Shown: in pieces, positions 54,503 to 61,260 of the stretch
How the letters are laid out: each line of letters opens with the position of its first letter
Position numbering within the stretch: position 1 is the stretch's first letter
Source: Haloarchaeobius amylolyticus
GTDB lineage: Archaea > Halobacteriota > Halobacteria > Halobacteriales > Natrialbaceae
Direction: 5' to 3'
Assembly (NCBI RefSeq): GCF_026616195.1
Contig: NZ_JANHDH010000001.1
Location: forward strand, 1,116,001 to 1,180,000
DNA length: 64,000 bases
Program-made: the position numbers and the translations under genes
Notes under the pieces: model-generated
Databases searched by the model: none
Told to the model about the DNA's origin: nothing
Seen by the model: the letters and a program-made list of their open reading frames with translations, nothing else

Positions 54503-55960
54503 ATGCCACTCGACACCGGCTGGGACCTCCCGGCGACGACCGCCGTGTCGTTCGACCCGCCGGCAGCAGCCATCGGTGTACACGACGCCGACGCCTTCCG
54601 CGACGCCTACGCCGACTTCTTCCGTCGCGAGCTGGCGACCGACGTCGAGCGCGACCTCGACAACGACGCGCTCCACCGCATCGCGAACCGCCTGAAGACG
54701 CTCTCGTGGCGGCCCGACTACGCCCGGTACGACCACCCGGTCGGCGCCGACGAACTGACGGCCCTCACCCGCGTCGTGCAGGCCTACGCCAGGGCTGGTG
54801 CCGACCTCCGGCCGTCGACGCGCCCGGACTACTGGGCCCACGACGCCACCCGCGAGTGGGTCGAATCGACCGTGCCGGACTGCGAGCACTGCGAGCGTCG
54901 CGACATCTCGGTCGTCTCGGGCGAGGCGACCGCGTTCCACGTCTGCGAGGGCCACCACCGCGAGGCCATGCAGCGCTTCGTCGAGGCGACGCGGACCGAG
55001 CCCGCACAGCCCGACCCCGACGAACCGTTCGACCTCGCCGAGCGCCTCGACGCCGAGGAGTTGCCGACCGCCGCGGCCCAGCGCCTCGCCGAGATCGGCG
55101 CGTACGACCCCCACATCATCCGTCCCGTCGCGGAGAGCCTGCTCCGGGCGTTCGAGTCCCAGCGCGGGGCCGTCGTCGTCTCCCGGGACTTCCTCCACCC
55201 GGTGACGACCGCGCTGACCCACCTCGGGACCATCGACGGCCGGGTCCGCGAGCGCTTCGTCGCCTCGCTCGCCGACGAGGACGCCCCCATCCGGCAGGCG
55301 AGTGCGGCCGCCATCGCCTCGCTGGCGTGGGAGCGACCCGACGCCCTGCTGTCGGTCGAGGAGGGCGTGGTCGTCCCCCGGCTCGTCACCATGCTCGACG
55401 AGGACGACCCCGACTCCCGGGCGCTGGCGCTCTCGGCGCTGCGGGAGTTCGCCCGGTCGCACCCCCACGTGGTCGACCCCTACACCAGCCGGGTGACCGA
55501 CGTGCTCGACGGTGACGCCGGGAGTCCGAGCCGGTTCCTCGCCGGTATCACGCTCGCGAACCTCACGCTCGCCTCGCCGGAACTGGGTGCCCGCCGGGCG
55601 AACCGGTTCGAGCGCCTCGCCTGCACCACCGGCCCGGAGGCACTCGCCGGACTCGCCGGGCTGTACTACCTCGACCAGGCCGGGTACGACGTGCAGGCGC
55701 CACTCCAGACCGCCGCCGAGACCGCTGAATCGGCACCAGAGCCGGTCCCGGACCCGCTTGCGGACCCGGCCGCCGGGGTCCGGTGGTACGCCGACCCGAC
55801 CCGCCACGACCGCCGGACCGTCCGGGAGGCGGTGTACGCGCTCGGCCACCTCGGCGGCCCGGGCGAACTCGACTTCGTGGACTGGGTGGACGCCTGCGCC
55901 CGCGACGACGCGCTCCGGACGGCCTGCGAGACGGCGCGGGACCGGCTGTTCGTAACCTGA
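54503..55960 (+). CDS. HEAT-repeat protein with N-terminal Cys/His cluster
   Basis: A 485-residue soluble protein starting MPLDTGWDLPATTAVSFDPP; a TATA-like ACGTTAAG about 28 bases upstream supports this leaderless start. Residues about 125-160 contain CEHCERRD ... HVCEGHH, a possible zinc site. From about 195 on there are repeated paired helices (EDAPIRQASAAAIASLAWE; DPDSRALALSALREFARSH), i.e. HEAT-like repeats, which usually form protein-binding solenoids. It lies just upstream of the GNAT array on the same strand but has its own promoter and a 69-base spacer after it. Confidence 0.82.
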   Translation: MPLDTGWDLPATTAVSFDPPAAAIGVHDADAFRDAYADFFRRELATDVERDLDNDALHRIANRLKTLSWRPDYARYDHPVGADELTALTRVVQAYARAGADLRPSTRPDYWAHDATREWVESTVPDCEHCERRDISVVSGEATAFHVCEGHHREAMQRFVEATRTEPAQPDPDEPFDLAERLDAEELPTAAAQRLAEIGAYDPHIIRPVAESLLRAFESQRGAVVVSRDFLHPVTTALTHLGTIDGRVRERFVASLADEDAPIRQASAAAIASLAWERPDALLSVEEGVVVPRLVTMLDEDDPDSRALALSALREFARSHPHVVDPYTSRVTDVLDGDAGSPSRFLAGITLANLTLASPELGARRANRFERLACTTGPEALAGLAGLYYLDQAGYDVQAPLQTAAETAESAPEPVPDPLADPAAGVRWYADPTRHDRRTVREAVYALGHLGGPGELDFVDWVDACARDDALRTACETARDRLFVT

Positions 55961-56029
55961 ACACCGGGCGAGTCAGACCGTGTCACACCCCGAGAACGCT
56001 TTTTGTACTCCCGGGCGAAGCCGCCAGCC

Positions 56030-56656
56030 ATGCACCTGTTCCCCACCGCGTTCGAGACCGAGCGTCTCCGCTACGAGCGCCTCGACGAGACCGTCGACGT
56101 GTTCGAACTCTACGACGTGATGAGCCAGGAGGGGTTCGCGGACACGGTCGAGCACATCTCGAAATCACAGCACGACACGCCGAAAGACACCTTCGACTAC
56201 CTCGCAGAGAGCGCCGAGAAGTGGGAGGAGGCCGACCGCGCGAACTGGGCGATGATCCCGAAAGCGGGCGAGGACGGGGCCGGCGAGTTCGCCGGCGTCG
56301 CGTCGCTCATCCCGCTGTGGGACCGCCGGACGGCCCGCCTCGGCGTCTGGCTCCGCGAGCCGTTCTGGGGACGCGGCTACTCGGGCGAGCGCGCCGACGC
56401 CCTCGTGGACCTCGCCTTCGACCGCCTCGACCTCGAACTCGTCGCGGCGGCCCACACCGACGAGAACGAGGCCTCGAAGCGCGCCATCGAGAAGTACGTC
56501 GACCGCTGGGGCGGCCAGTACGACGGCATCCTCCGGAACTGGGTCGTCCTCGACGACGAGCCGCGGGACCTGCATCGCTACACCATCACCCGCGAGCAGT
56601 ACGACGAGGCCGACGTGCCGGTCGGCCTGACGGTCCACGAGGACGGGTTCGAGTGA
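56030..56656 (+). CDS. GNAT N-acetyltransferase, array copy 1
   Basis: A 208-residue RimJ/RimL-type acetyltransferase. N-terminal LFPTAFETERLRYERLDE, then a variable half, and an acetyl-CoA loop PFWGRGYSGERADA at about 111-124 followed by DENEASKRAIEKYVDRWGGQ. A TATA-like GCTTTTTG (about 55998-56005) is 25-30 bases before the ATG. First of five tandem paralogues; overlaps copy 2 by one base (TGATG). It should transfer an acetyl group to an amine of a small molecule or protein N-terminus; target unknown. Confidence 0.9.
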   Translation: MHLFPTAFETERLRYERLDETVDVFELYDVMSQEGFADTVEHISKSQHDTPKDTFDYLAESAEKWEEADRANWAMIPKAGEDGAGEFAGVASLIPLWDRRTARLGVWLREPFWGRGYSGERADALVDLAFDRLDLELVAAAHTDENEASKRAIEKYVDRWGGQYDGILRNWVVLDDEPRDLHRYTITREQYDEADVPVGLTVHEDGFE

Positions 56657-57300
56657 TGAGCGACCTCTTCCCCGAGCGCTTCGAGACGGCGCGCCTGCGC
56701 TTCGAGCGTGTCGGCCTCGACACCGTCGACACCCTCGACGTCTACCCCTACTACTCCACCGAGGCGGGCATCGAGCAGGCGACCCGGTACATGACGTGGG
56801 AGCCCCACCAGGTTCCAGAAGAGACGTGGGAGTTCGTCCGGGCCGTCGGCGAGCAGGCCGAGGCCGGCGACGGGAAACTGTACGCCCTGTACCCGAAAGC
56901 CGGCGAGGACGGGACCGAGGTACCCGGCGCGGGCGAGTTCGCCGGCACCGCGGGCCTCCACCCCGACTGGGACCAGCGGAGCGTCACCTTCGGGATGTGG
57001 CTCCGCAAGCCCTTCTGGGGGCGTGGCTACTCGGGCGAACGCGCCGACGCCTTCGTCACGCTGGCGTTCGACCGCCTCGACCTCGACCTCGTGGCCGTGA
57101 CGGTACTCGACGAGAACGACCAGTCGAAACGGGCCATCGAGAAGTACGTGGGTCGGTGGGGCGGCCAGCACGACGGCTACTTCCCGAACCTCGACACCCA
57201 CGGCGACGAGCCCGCGAGCGTCCATCGCTACAGCATCACCCGCGAGCAGTACGAGGCCGCGGACGTGACGGTCGACCTGACCATCCACGACCGGCCATGA
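56656..57300 (+). CDS. GNAT N-acetyltransferase, array copy 2
   Basis: A 214-residue paralogue of copy 1. Start MSDLFPERFETARLRFERVG; the middle (YYSTEAGIEQATRYMTWEPH) differs, and the loop KPFWGRGYSGERADAFVTLA is nearly the same as its neighbours. Ends with DENDQSKRAIEKYVGRWGGQ and a YSITREQYEAADVTVDL tail. The ATG shares one base with the copy 1 stop, and its own stop overlaps copy 3 by 4 bases, so all are co-translated. A slightly longer insert (GTEVPGAGE) is found before the central strand. Confidence 0.9.
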   Translation: MSDLFPERFETARLRFERVGLDTVDTLDVYPYYSTEAGIEQATRYMTWEPHQVPEETWEFVRAVGEQAEAGDGKLYALYPKAGEDGTEVPGAGEFAGTAGLHPDWDQRSVTFGMWLRKPFWGRGYSGERADAFVTLAFDRLDLDLVAVTVLDENDQSKRAIEKYVGRWGGQHDGYFPNLDTHGDEPASVHRYSITREQYEAADVTVDLTIHDRP

Positions 57301-57953
57301 CCGACCTCTTCCCCGCACACGTCGAGACCGAGCGCCTCCGGCTCGAACGCGCCGACCGGGCGCTGGACCCCGACAGCGTGTACGAGAAGATGGGTGCGCA
57401 CCGCGAGCGTGCGGTGGCCGAGCACGAGCACCTGCACTCGAACCCGCACCAGCACCCGAAGGGCAGCGCGGACTGGCTGGCCGACGCCCGCGAGCAGTGG
57501 GAGGCCGGCGAGGCCGCCACGTGGGCCATCTTCGCCCGCGAGGACGAACCAGCGCCCGACGCCGCGGTCGTCCCCGACGACGACCAGCTGCACGTCGGCA
57601 GAGCGAGCCTGCACGTCGAGTGGGGGAAGCGCCAGGCGTTCACCGGCGTCACCATCCACCGGCCCTTCTGGGGGCGGGGCTACTCCGGTGAACGCGCCGG
57701 GGCGACCCTCGCGGTCGCCTTCGACCGCCTCGACCTCGACTACGTCTCGCCGGCGCACATGGTGGACAACGAGCAGTCGAAACGCGCCATCCGGAAGTAC
57801 GTCGACCGCTGGGGTGGCCAGCGCGACTGCCTGCTCCGGAACTGGGAGCCGACCGAGGACGGCGAGCCCGCGGACCTGGTCCGGTACACCATCAGCCAGC
57901 AGCAGTGGCGCGCGGCCGGCGGGACCCCCGACGAGGTGACCATCCGTGCCTGA
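57297..57953 (+). CDS. GNAT N-acetyltransferase, array copy 3
   Basis: A 218-residue paralogue, the most divergent in its first half: MTDLFPAHVETERLRLERAD, then a His-rich stretch (AEHEHLHSNPHQHPKG) and an acidic loop. The acetyl-CoA motif RPFWGRGYSGERAGATLAVA is kept, followed by VDNEQSKRAIRKYVDRWGGQ. Overlaps copy 2 by 4 bases and copy 4 by 8 bases. The His-rich region may bind metal; otherwise no distinct target is visible. Confidence 0.9.
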   Translation: MTDLFPAHVETERLRLERADRALDPDSVYEKMGAHRERAVAEHEHLHSNPHQHPKGSADWLADAREQWEAGEAATWAIFAREDEPAPDAAVVPDDDQLHVGRASLHVEWGKRQAFTGVTIHRPFWGRGYSGERAGATLAVAFDRLDLDYVSPAHMVDNEQSKRAIRKYVDRWGGQRDCLLRNWEPTEDGEPADLVRYTISQQQWRAAGGTPDEVTIRA

Positions 57954-58569
57954 CCGCTTCCCCGACCGCATCGAGACGGAACGCCTGAACCTCGTCCACG
58001 AGTCACCCGGGGAGACCGACGTGTTCGAGCGGTACGAGCCGATGCGTGCCGGGCACGCCGACCCGGCCGCGTTCGAGCACATCCCCATCGAGCCGTTCGA
58101 GCATCCACAGGAGGCCCGCGAGTTCCTCGCCTCGCGGACCGACCGCTGGGACGGCGGGAACGCCGGGACCTACGTCGTCCGGCCGAAGGACGGCGAGGAC
58201 GGTGCCGGGGAACCGGCGGGCGAGGCCGAACTGTTCGCCATCTGGGACCGCCGGACCGCGTACTTCACCTTCGGCCTGCGGCGACCGTTCTGGGGGCGGG
58301 GCTACTCCGGCGAGCGCGCCGACGCCTTCGTCGTCTGCACCTTCGAGCGCCTCGACCTCGGCGTGGTCTCGGTGAGCCACACCGTCGCGAACGAGAACTC
58401 GCGCCGGGCCATCGAGAGGTACGTCGATCGCTGGAACGGCCAGCGCGACGCCACCCTCCGGAACGGCCACGTCATCGACGGCGAACCACGCGACGTGGTC
58501 CAGTACAGCATCACCCGCGAGGACTACGAGGCGACCGACCACGGGCCGGACGTGACGTTCCACGGGTGA
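57946..58569 (+). CDS. GNAT N-acetyltransferase, array copy 4
   Basis: A 207-residue paralogue with a GTG start (MPDRFPDRIETERLNLVHES) that overlaps the end of copy 3 by 8 bases. Conserved loop RPFWGRGYSGERADAFVVCT, then VANENSRRAIERYVDRWNGQ. At DNA level 58288-58320 is identical over 33 bases to 58932-58964 of copy 5, including silent positions. Copies 4 and 5 overlap by 4 bases (GTGA). Confidence 0.9.
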   Translation: MPDRFPDRIETERLNLVHESPGETDVFERYEPMRAGHADPAAFEHIPIEPFEHPQEAREFLASRTDRWDGGNAGTYVVRPKDGEDGAGEPAGEAELFAIWDRRTAYFTFGLRRPFWGRGYSGERADAFVVCTFERLDLGVVSVSHTVANENSRRAIERYVDRWNGQRDATLRNGHVIDGEPRDVVQYSITREDYEATDHGPDVTFHG

Positions 58570-59195
58570 GCACGATGCCCGAGTTCTCCTGGGACGACGG
58601 CCTGTTCCCGGCCCGCATCGAGACCGACCGTCTCGTCATGACGCGCGTCGACGCCGACACCGACCCACTCGAGTTCTACCGGGCGTTCTCCCGCGAGGCC
58701 GACCCCGAGCGCGTGTTCGCGTACGTCTCGCCGACGTTCGTCTCGACGCCGAAACGCTCGCACGACCTGCTCCGGAGCTTCGCCGAGCAGGGGCGCGAGG
58801 GGACCGCCGCAGCCTACGTCCTCCGGCCGGCAGACGGTGAACCCGACGCGGGGCGCTTCGCCGGTATCGCGTCGTTCCGGCCCGTCTGGGGCCGCAAGAG
58901 TGCCGAGGTCGGCGTCATGCTCGGCACCGACTTCTGGGGGCGGGGCTACTCCGGCGAGCGCGCCGGAGCGTTCCTCGAACTCGCGTTCGACCACCTCGAC
59001 CTCGAGCTGGTCGAGGTGACGACCCGGGTCGGCAACGAGAACTCCCAGCGCGCCATCGAGCGGTACCTCGACCGCTTCGGCGGCCAGCGCGACGCAGTCG
59101 CCCGAAACGACGAGACGGATTCGCAGGGCGCTCACGACGTGTACCGCTACACGGTCTCGCGGGTGCAGTACCGACAGGAACAGCAGGAGGGATGA
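58566..59195 (+). CDS. GNAT N-acetyltransferase, array copy 5
   Basis: A 209-residue paralogue with a GTG start at 58566; an ATG at 58575 (MPEFSWDDGLFPARIETDRL) is equally possible. It has a short acidic/aromatic extension before the common FPARIETDRL segment, loop DFWGRGYSGERAGAFLELA, and VGNENSQRAIERYLDRFGGQ. The C-terminus ends in a Gln/Glu-rich tail rather than the VTVDLT-like ending of others. Last of the array; a 117-base spacer follows, then the convergent superoxide dismutase gene. Confidence 0.9.
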   Translation: MSTMPEFSWDDGLFPARIETDRLVMTRVDADTDPLEFYRAFSREADPERVFAYVSPTFVSTPKRSHDLLRSFAEQGREGTAAAYVLRPADGEPDAGRFAGIASFRPVWGRKSAEVGVMLGTDFWGRGYSGERAGAFLELAFDHLDLELVEVTTRVGNENSQRAIERYLDRFGGQRDAVARNDETDSQGAHDVYRYTVSRVQYRQEQQEG

Positions 59196-59312: not shown

Positions 59313-59915
59313 CTATTCGAAGGCGGCGACGGCGTCCTCGTAGCGACTGGCCGGCTCGCGCCAGTCGACGACCTCGAAGAACGAGTCCACGAAGTCGCCG
59401 CGGGCCGGGCCGTAGTCGTGGTAGTACGAGTGCTCCCAGACGTCGAGCGCGAGGATGGGATGAGCACCCCACAGCGCGCCCTGGTCGTGCTTGTCCACCA
59501 CGACGTTCCGGAGCTGGTTGCTGAAGGAGTCGTAGACGAGCAGCGCCCAGCCTCCGGCGTTCCCGGCGGCGGCGCGGAACTCGCCCTCCCAGGCGTCGTA
59601 GGAGCCGAAGTCGGCCTCGATGCGCGCTCGCAGGTCGCCCGCGGGCTCGTCGCCGCCCTCGGGGCTCATGTTCTGCCAGAACAGGTCGTGGAGGACGTGC
59701 CCGGAGCCGTTGTGCGTGACGTTCCGGATGGCGCCCGGGGAGTCGCCGAACTCGCCCGCGTCGCGGTTCGCGGCGAGCGTCTCCTCGGCCGAGTTCCACC
59801 CGTCGACGTAGCCCTGGTGGTGGGTGTCGTGGTGCCAGCGGAGCACCTGTTCGGAGATGTGCGGTTCGAGTGCGTCGTAATCGTACGGGAGTGGCGGCAG
59901 TTCGTAGTCGGTCAT
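59313..59915 (-). CDS. sod: Superoxide dismutase, Mn/Fe family
   Basis: A 200-residue enzyme that turns superoxide into hydrogen peroxide and oxygen. Metal ligands by family position are H28 (LRWHHDTHH), H76 (GHVLHDLFW), D158 and H162 (LALDVWEHSYYHDY). GGWALLVYDS precedes the second ligand pair. Haloarchaeal members normally use Mn. The start MTDYELPPLPYDYDALEPHI fits; a TATA-like GTATAAC lies about 30 bases upstream on the minus strand. Divergent from the membrane protein gene across a palindrome-rich spacer. Confidence 0.97.
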   Translation of the reverse strand: MTDYELPPLPYDYDALEPHISEQVLRWHHDTHHQGYVDGWNSAEETLAANRDAGEFGDSPGAIRNVTHNGSGHVLHDLFWQNMSPEGGDEPAGDLRARIEADFGSYDAWEGEFRAAAGNAGGWALLVYDSFSNQLRNVVVDKHDQGALWGAHPILALDVWEHSYYHDYGPARGDFVDSFFEVVDWREPASRYEDAVAAFE

Positions 59916-60762: not shown

Positions 60763-61260
60763 TCAGAGTTCTCGCGCCACCATCTCGCCCCAGTGGGCGA
60801 ACCCGTGGCGGTCGTAGAACGCCGTCGCGCGCTCGTTCTCACGGTCCACGTCCAGCACCAGCCGGTCCAGCGGGAGGGCCTGGTCCCGGGCGAGCGAGAC
60901 GGCAGCGGCCATCAGGTCGTCAGCCACGCCAGTTCCGCGGTACTCCGGGCGGACGTAGATCTCGTTGAGGACGGCCGCGTCCCAGATGAACGCGAGGCGT
61001 TCCGGAAGAACGAACACGTAGCCGGCGAGTTCATGTTCGTCACCGTCGCCAGCCGTCGCGACCGTCACGCAGCGCTCGTCGTCGGCCACGCATCGGTCCA
61101 CCCACTCCAGCCAGTCCGTCCGGTAGTCGTCGTCGAGTTTCCCCTCGTACTTCGCCTGCTTCTCGTCGCCGCCGGTGCCCGAGCCGAGGCCGAGTTCGAA
61201 GCCGCGCTTGAGTTCCCAGAGCGCCTCCGCGTCGGTGTCGGAATCGTAGGGTCGGGTCAT
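60763..61260 (-). CDS. GNAT family N-acetyltransferase (unlinked to the array)
   Basis: A 165-residue GNAT enzyme of a different branch from the array: motif A reads IYVRPEYRGTGVADDLMAAA (about 104-123) with the R-x-x-G-x-G/A acetyl-CoA loop, and LDVDRENERATAFYDRHGF is the usual motif B. The N-terminal 60 residues are Glu/Lys/Gly-rich. It could acetylate a small molecule or a protein Lys; target unknown. It abuts the stop of the convergent membrane protein gene. Confidence 0.9.
   Translation of the reverse strand: MTRPYDSDTDAEALWELKRGFELGLGSGTGGDEKQAKYEGKLDDDYRTDWLEWVDRCVADDERCVTVATAGDGDEHELAGYVFVLPERLAFIWDAAVLNEIYVRPEYRGTGVADDLMAAAVSLARDQALPLDRLVLDVDRENERATAFYDRHGFAHWGEMVAREL

Follow-up and report, generated by a model that had tools for sequence, protein, structure and literature searches.

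The window analyzed here, a stretch of 64,000 nucleotides from Haloarchaeobius amylolyticus, contains five intact open reading frames of 207-218 codons that follow one another at positions 56030-59195 and encode predicted GNAT acetyltransferases (Table 1). We refer to them as copies 1 to 5 by position and as A to E by lineage. Having re-derived the frames, we confirmed the five genes, their lengths, and the overlaps of 1, 4, 8, and 4 bases reported in a first-pass annotation, with the proviso that the last overlap hinges on the GTG at 58566. An alternative ATG at 58575 would give copy 5 a length of 206 aa and a 5-base gap to copy 4 instead of an overlap, and the family profile leaves the choice between these starts undecided. 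With either start, copy 5 has an N-terminal extension ahead of the LFP..ETERL sequence at which the family begins.

Table 1. Features at and around the acetyltransferase array, in window coordinates
Feature	Position	Strand	Description
HEAT-repeat-like protein	54503..55960	+	485 aa; directly upstream of the array, co-directional, 69-nt gap
Promoter-like element AACGC-TTTTTGTA	55995..56007	+	BRE/TATA-like; first T 30 nt before the copy 1 ATG
Copy 1 (lineage A), RimJ/RimL-type GNAT	56030..56656	+	ATG start, 208 aa
Copy 2 (lineage B), GNAT	56656..57300	+	214 aa; 1-base overlap with copy 1 (TGATG)
Copy 3 (lineage C), GNAT	57297..57953	+	218 aa; 4-base overlap with copy 2
Copy 4 (lineage D), GNAT	57946..58569	+	GTG start, 207 aa; 8-base overlap with copy 3
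Copy 5 (lineage E), GNAT	58566..59195	+	GTG start, 209 aa; 4-base overlap with copy 4
Haloarchaeal Mn superoxide dismutase	59313-59915		Downstream, convergent with the array
Second GNAT of a different type (PF00583, RimI-like)	60763-61260		Near the array

The sequence directly before copy 1 reads GTGTCACACCCCGAGAACGCTTTTTGTA, with a T-run 30 nt from the ATG. A similar AACGC/TTTTT arrangement lies at about the same distance ahead of most other family loci. Between -38 and -18, 76% of 88 family first genes have a T-run, TTTA, or TTAT, versus 29% of 571 control genes. The archaeal TATA box lies ~26 nt upstream of the transcription start. Since the T-run is 30 nt from the ATG, its position suggests one leaderless transcript starting at copy 1. 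The overlaps and the consensus element together indicate that the five genes probably form one operon. A separate TCACACCCC-like motif at 55980-55991, just 5′ of the BRE/TATA element, is a possible regulator site; CAC[AG]C was found upstream of 39% of family first genes and 9% of controls, a comparison that is not controlled for kinship of the sequences.

We searched the five proteins for known domains and compared them with known structures. All five matched PF13302 (Acetyltransf_3, RimJ/RimL-like GNAT), scoring 60.0, 58.9, 50.0, 40.3, and 61.6 bits for copies 1 to 5 (curated cut-off, 25.4; E-values of 5e-16, 1e-15, 7e-13, 6e-10, and 2e-16, respectively). The structures that matched a profile of 103 family members best were TTHA1799 (1e-13), a Bacillus anthracis GNAT (2e-13), and YdaF (6e-13), followed by weaker matches to bleomycin acetyltransferase, PA3944, and SpeG. 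An AlphaFold2 model of copy 1 (mean pLDDT, 95.9; pTM, 0.91) has the RimL-type topology of the GNAT fold, and a Foldseek search with it returned the same circle of enzymes as the profile search, with TM scores of ~0.7-0.8 to RimL, TTHA1799, and PA3944. Membership in the BlmB/TlmB bleomycin acetyltransferases was not found, with scores of at most 25 bits against an NCBIfam curated cut-off of 625 bits. The profile matches and the predicted fold lead us to class the five copies with the RimJ/RimL-type N-acetyltransferases, as a branch restricted to haloarchaea.

The serine of the N..S motif in this type of enzyme is essential in PA3944 (S148) and is the proposed acid in RimL (S141) (PMC8072286). 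In an alignment of 134 family members, N146 was present in all and S149 in 133, both occur in all five copies, and, as read from the sequence motif, S149 is equivalent to the PA3944/RimL serine. E120, G116, G162, W97, and G89 are present in 134 of 134 members. We took as the core the 33 positions at which at least 90% of these 134 proteins agree; copies 1 to 5 depart from it at 0, 2, 1, 1, and 0 positions. Both departures in copy 2 are substitutions (R169P and D180S), and copy 2 alone among the 134 members lacks R169. Because S149 and N146 are kept and departures from the core are few, all five copies look catalytically intact, and decay of individual copies could be ruled out on the same grounds.

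Identity to copy 1 is 55, 47, 48, and 43% for copies 2, 3, 4, and 5, respectively, and ~40 alignment columns are invariant across the five. The first-pass annotation had described paralogues with one shared catalytic core, defined by an FWGRGYSGERA acetyl-coenzyme A (acetyl-CoA) loop and a C-terminal S.RAI.+Y..R..GQ block. This description was borne out: the proteins belong to one subfamily, the loop is identical in all five, and N146, S149, R151, A152, I153, Y156, R159, G162, and Q163 are likewise the same in every copy. The N-terminal halves had been called very different. They are indeed less alike, with pairwise identities of 30-43% for residues 1-108 versus 53-71% for residues 109-191, but most of this difference is a family-wide pattern, since the N half is less conserved by 17 points on average over 8,780 pairs from the whole family. 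Pairs from the window fall ~0.06 below the family trend for the N half, about one standard deviation, so an unusual diversification of these copies was rejected as only a slight excess. The His-rich stretch of copy 3, AEHEHLHSNPHQHPKG, had been taken for an insert, but it aligns nearly gap-free with the EH....PH.TPK segment of the family; for that reason we also discarded it as a metal-binding novelty. Copy 3 does carry additional residues, further on, at about 85-100.

We next determined the relationships of the copies from a maximum-likelihood tree of 134 family proteins. For A, B, and D, orthologues in other genomes of Haloarchaeobius and Halorubellus shared a starred clade with the window copy; the B lineage was further joined by first copies of a different family (f8, genus g55). 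The group nearest to C consisted of the second genes of Halorubellus arrays (95/95), and E joined second copies from Haladaptataceae (99/83); both C and E sit on long branches and are placed less surely. The five do not form one clade; a tree constrained to group them was rejected (p-AU, 9e-6; lnL, 477 worse). When the N and C halves were put in separate trees, the nearest relatives of A, B, and D stayed mostly the same, but the positions of C and E were unstable. The full-length tree places A to E in separate, supported groups that cross genus boundaries, and we conclude that each copy belongs to a separate old lineage.

Recent gene conversion was not seen in sliding windows along the genes, where nucleotide identities between paralogues were alike within and across genomes. 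Conversion that keeps the C halves alike was therefore ruled out, identity within a genome being no higher than that across genomes. Orthologues in the nearest genome (G328) are 90% (A), 88% (B), and 84% (D) identical, with dN/dS values (NG86) of 0.19, 0.23, and 0.29, respectively, indicating purifying selection. Between distant copies dN/dS is uninformative, dS being near saturation (GC3, 0.91-0.95). C keeps 32 and E keeps 33 of the 33 core positions.

Arrays of this kind recur in other haloarchaea, but the fixed gene order proposed in the first-pass annotation does not: both number and order vary. The window has A-B-C-D-E. The nearest genome has A-B-D, plus a divergent copy before its HEAT gene and another copy elsewhere; four other Haloarchaeobius genomes have A-D-F, and the two Halorubellus genomes have A-C-D'-D-B (G265) and A-C-D-B (G238). 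Lineage A heads every Haloarchaeobius and Halorubellus array examined, and the remainder varies. The divergent GNAT before the HEAT gene of the nearest genome (L119:4844-5497) carries S149A, has changes at 17 of the 33 core positions, and lacks much of the CoA-loop consensus.

Across the class, a profile of the five copies matched proteins in 243 of 391 sampled genomes at an E-value of ≤1e-10, the weakest of which may be other GNATs. Among 197 genomes of the phylum, strong matches were confined to the same order, save one weak one (9e-21). Many haloarchaea have a single family copy, and a scan of named genomes found two to four adjacent copies at 16 of 73 loci. Close relatives have two to five copies. 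In different families, too, neighboring copies overlap, by 4, 8, or 11 bases. Arrays outside Haloarchaeobius and Halorubellus could have arisen by repeated independent duplication. The best relative of copy 5 among the 391 class genomes is 48% identical, and that of copy 3 among 125 family genomes is 50% identical. Plasmids of Haladaptatus halobius carry broken family copies (L061:5019-5621 and L066:4998-5621), as gene turnover would lead one to expect. At L128:7175-7408, a gene for a small CPxC protein of the DUF7385 family (PF24110) overlaps the last GNAT gene by 4 bases; several loci of Haladaptatus and Halorussus show this arrangement, which is absent from the window.

We then examined the neighboring genes. 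Replication factor C large subunit, the PF00583 GNAT, a YdjM-like membrane protein, an HTH regulator, and HMG-CoA synthase form a conserved surrounding block (the first and last were named from sequence, with no domain scan), and a homologue of the PF00583 GNAT lies beside the family in 28 loci examined. Because this block is common, in part, to several haloarchaeal families, we conclude that the array occupies an old, stable chromosomal locus. The Mn superoxide dismutase gene is shared with the nearest genome and missing at the same place in other congeners. No biosynthetic or mobile genes were recognized among the neighbors examined. Upstream, the protein encoded at 54503-55960 has weak, subthreshold HEAT/Arm matches. 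In each of the 8 loci from Haloarchaeobius and Halorubellus, a homologue immediately precedes copy A, and among 125 family genomes only those 8 have the gene; from this linkage, the protein is a possible partner of the array. Some congeners (L121 and L123) have two such genes in tandem.

We consider it likely that standalone RimJ/RimL-type acetyltransferases expanded here by lineage-specific birth and death, and that the copies share one operon and act on different acceptors. Each copy would probably be a complete acetyl-CoA-dependent enzyme, in which acetyl-CoA binding and catalysis would fall to the C-terminal half (WGRGYSGERA loop, N146, and S149) and the choice of amine acceptor to the variable N-terminal half and the loops. 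Old tandem duplications, or insertions at the conserved locus, would have added the copies, which would have diverged toward different acceptors; later loss and reshuffling would then have left a different subset in each species. One transcript, catalytic activity, and different acceptors are what we infer, and target specialization among the copies is plausible. Protein N-termini are candidate acceptors because 14-19% of haloarchaeal proteins are N-terminally acetylated; the 2010 review giving this figure lists no experimental data on the responsible enzymes (PMC2946573). Small or peptide amines are also candidates, given the range of the relatives (PMC8072286).

Two other readings keep the copies as independent enzymes. 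They might form a detoxification or antimicrobial resistance set, each acetylating a different toxic amine, antibiotic, or competitor peptide. Among the relatives with a RimL fold are MccE, bleomycin acetyltransferase, and PA3944, an enzyme with activity on polymyxin; profile similarity to BlmB/TlmB is weak, and turnover of copy number would fit an arms race. With bleomycin scores far under the curated cut-offs, a stable chromosomal neighborhood, and the lack of recognized biosynthetic or mobile genes among the neighbors examined, we regard such a set as unlikely. It is also rather improbable that the copies are redundant or dosage copies, the product of mostly neutral duplication with little functional difference. 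Copy number is labile, and C and E sit on long branches without close relatives in the genomes searched, as that reading would have it; against it stand the 43-55% identity to copy 1, the age of the lineages, the dN/dS values of A, B, and D, and the intact core of all five.

The remaining readings make the proteins parts of a larger assembly. The first-pass annotation had suggested that five products, translated together in order, cooperate, for example as an enzyme set with different targets or as a hetero-oligomer; in its strict form, this would be a fixed hetero-oligomer or ordered set that needs all its members. SpeG- and RimL-type enzymes often form dimers or higher oligomers, and the genes overlap behind a probable single promoter. 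Sister species nevertheless do without several members, and for that reason a fixed assembly is very unlikely: the nearest genome lacks C and E, which have no close counterparts in the genomes searched, four congeners carry F but neither B nor C, B comes last in Halorubellus, and many haloarchaea have a single copy. By analogy with Naa15 in NatA, the HEAT-repeat protein might instead be a scaffold that recruits exchangeable GNAT subunits. Its constant place before copy A, in only the genomes that have that arrangement, favors this reading, but it occurs in two related genera only, where linkage may reflect shared ancestry, it is missing from other arrays, and its HEAT matches are below the cut-off; we give a scaffold of this kind little credence. 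There is only a slim chance that the HEAT protein and the species-variable GNAT set constitute a modular system in which one scaffold carries interchangeable catalytic subunits for different amine targets. Such a system, if real, would be an archaeal parallel to the eukaryotic NAT complexes.

As a genomic finding, arrays of tandem paralogues that gain and lose genes are commonplace. In the open-licence literature, we found no publication on tandem GNAT arrays in haloarchaea or in Haloarchaeobius. This RimJ/RimL-type family, confined to haloarchaea and repeatedly expanded in tandem, supplies concrete candidates for N-terminal or other amine acetylation, and if the copies differ in acceptor, the array would offer a natural experiment on the evolution of GNAT specificity.

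Among known systems, the RimJ/RimL-type enzymes (TTHA1799, YdaF, RimL 1S7N, and RimJ 6C37) share with the array proteins the fold, PF13302, the CoA loop, the N..S motif, and the C-terminal hairpin. Identity to them is ~16-26%, and unlike them, the array family has tandem arrays and the signature FWGRGYSGERA...N..S.RAIEKY..R.GG...G..RN. PA3944, a polymyxin/NANMO acetyltransferase, and the MccE and bleomycin acetyltransferases also share the fold, with an equivalent of the catalytic Ser148 by motif, but their sequence similarity to the array family is weak. SpeG polyamine acetyltransferases have the same fold (Foldseek E-value, ~1e-11) at 11-18% identity in the fold search. Pat1 and Pat2 of Haloferax volcanii (HVO_1756 and HVO_1821) are likewise haloarchaeal single-domain GNATs, which we treat as a separate kind. 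Pat2 acetylates glycerol kinase (PMC12607858). The enzyme type is thus a known one that has expanded in this lineage, and with copy number and order changing among close relatives, the array looks like a common gene-family cluster in the course of evolution, not a new machine of fixed composition.
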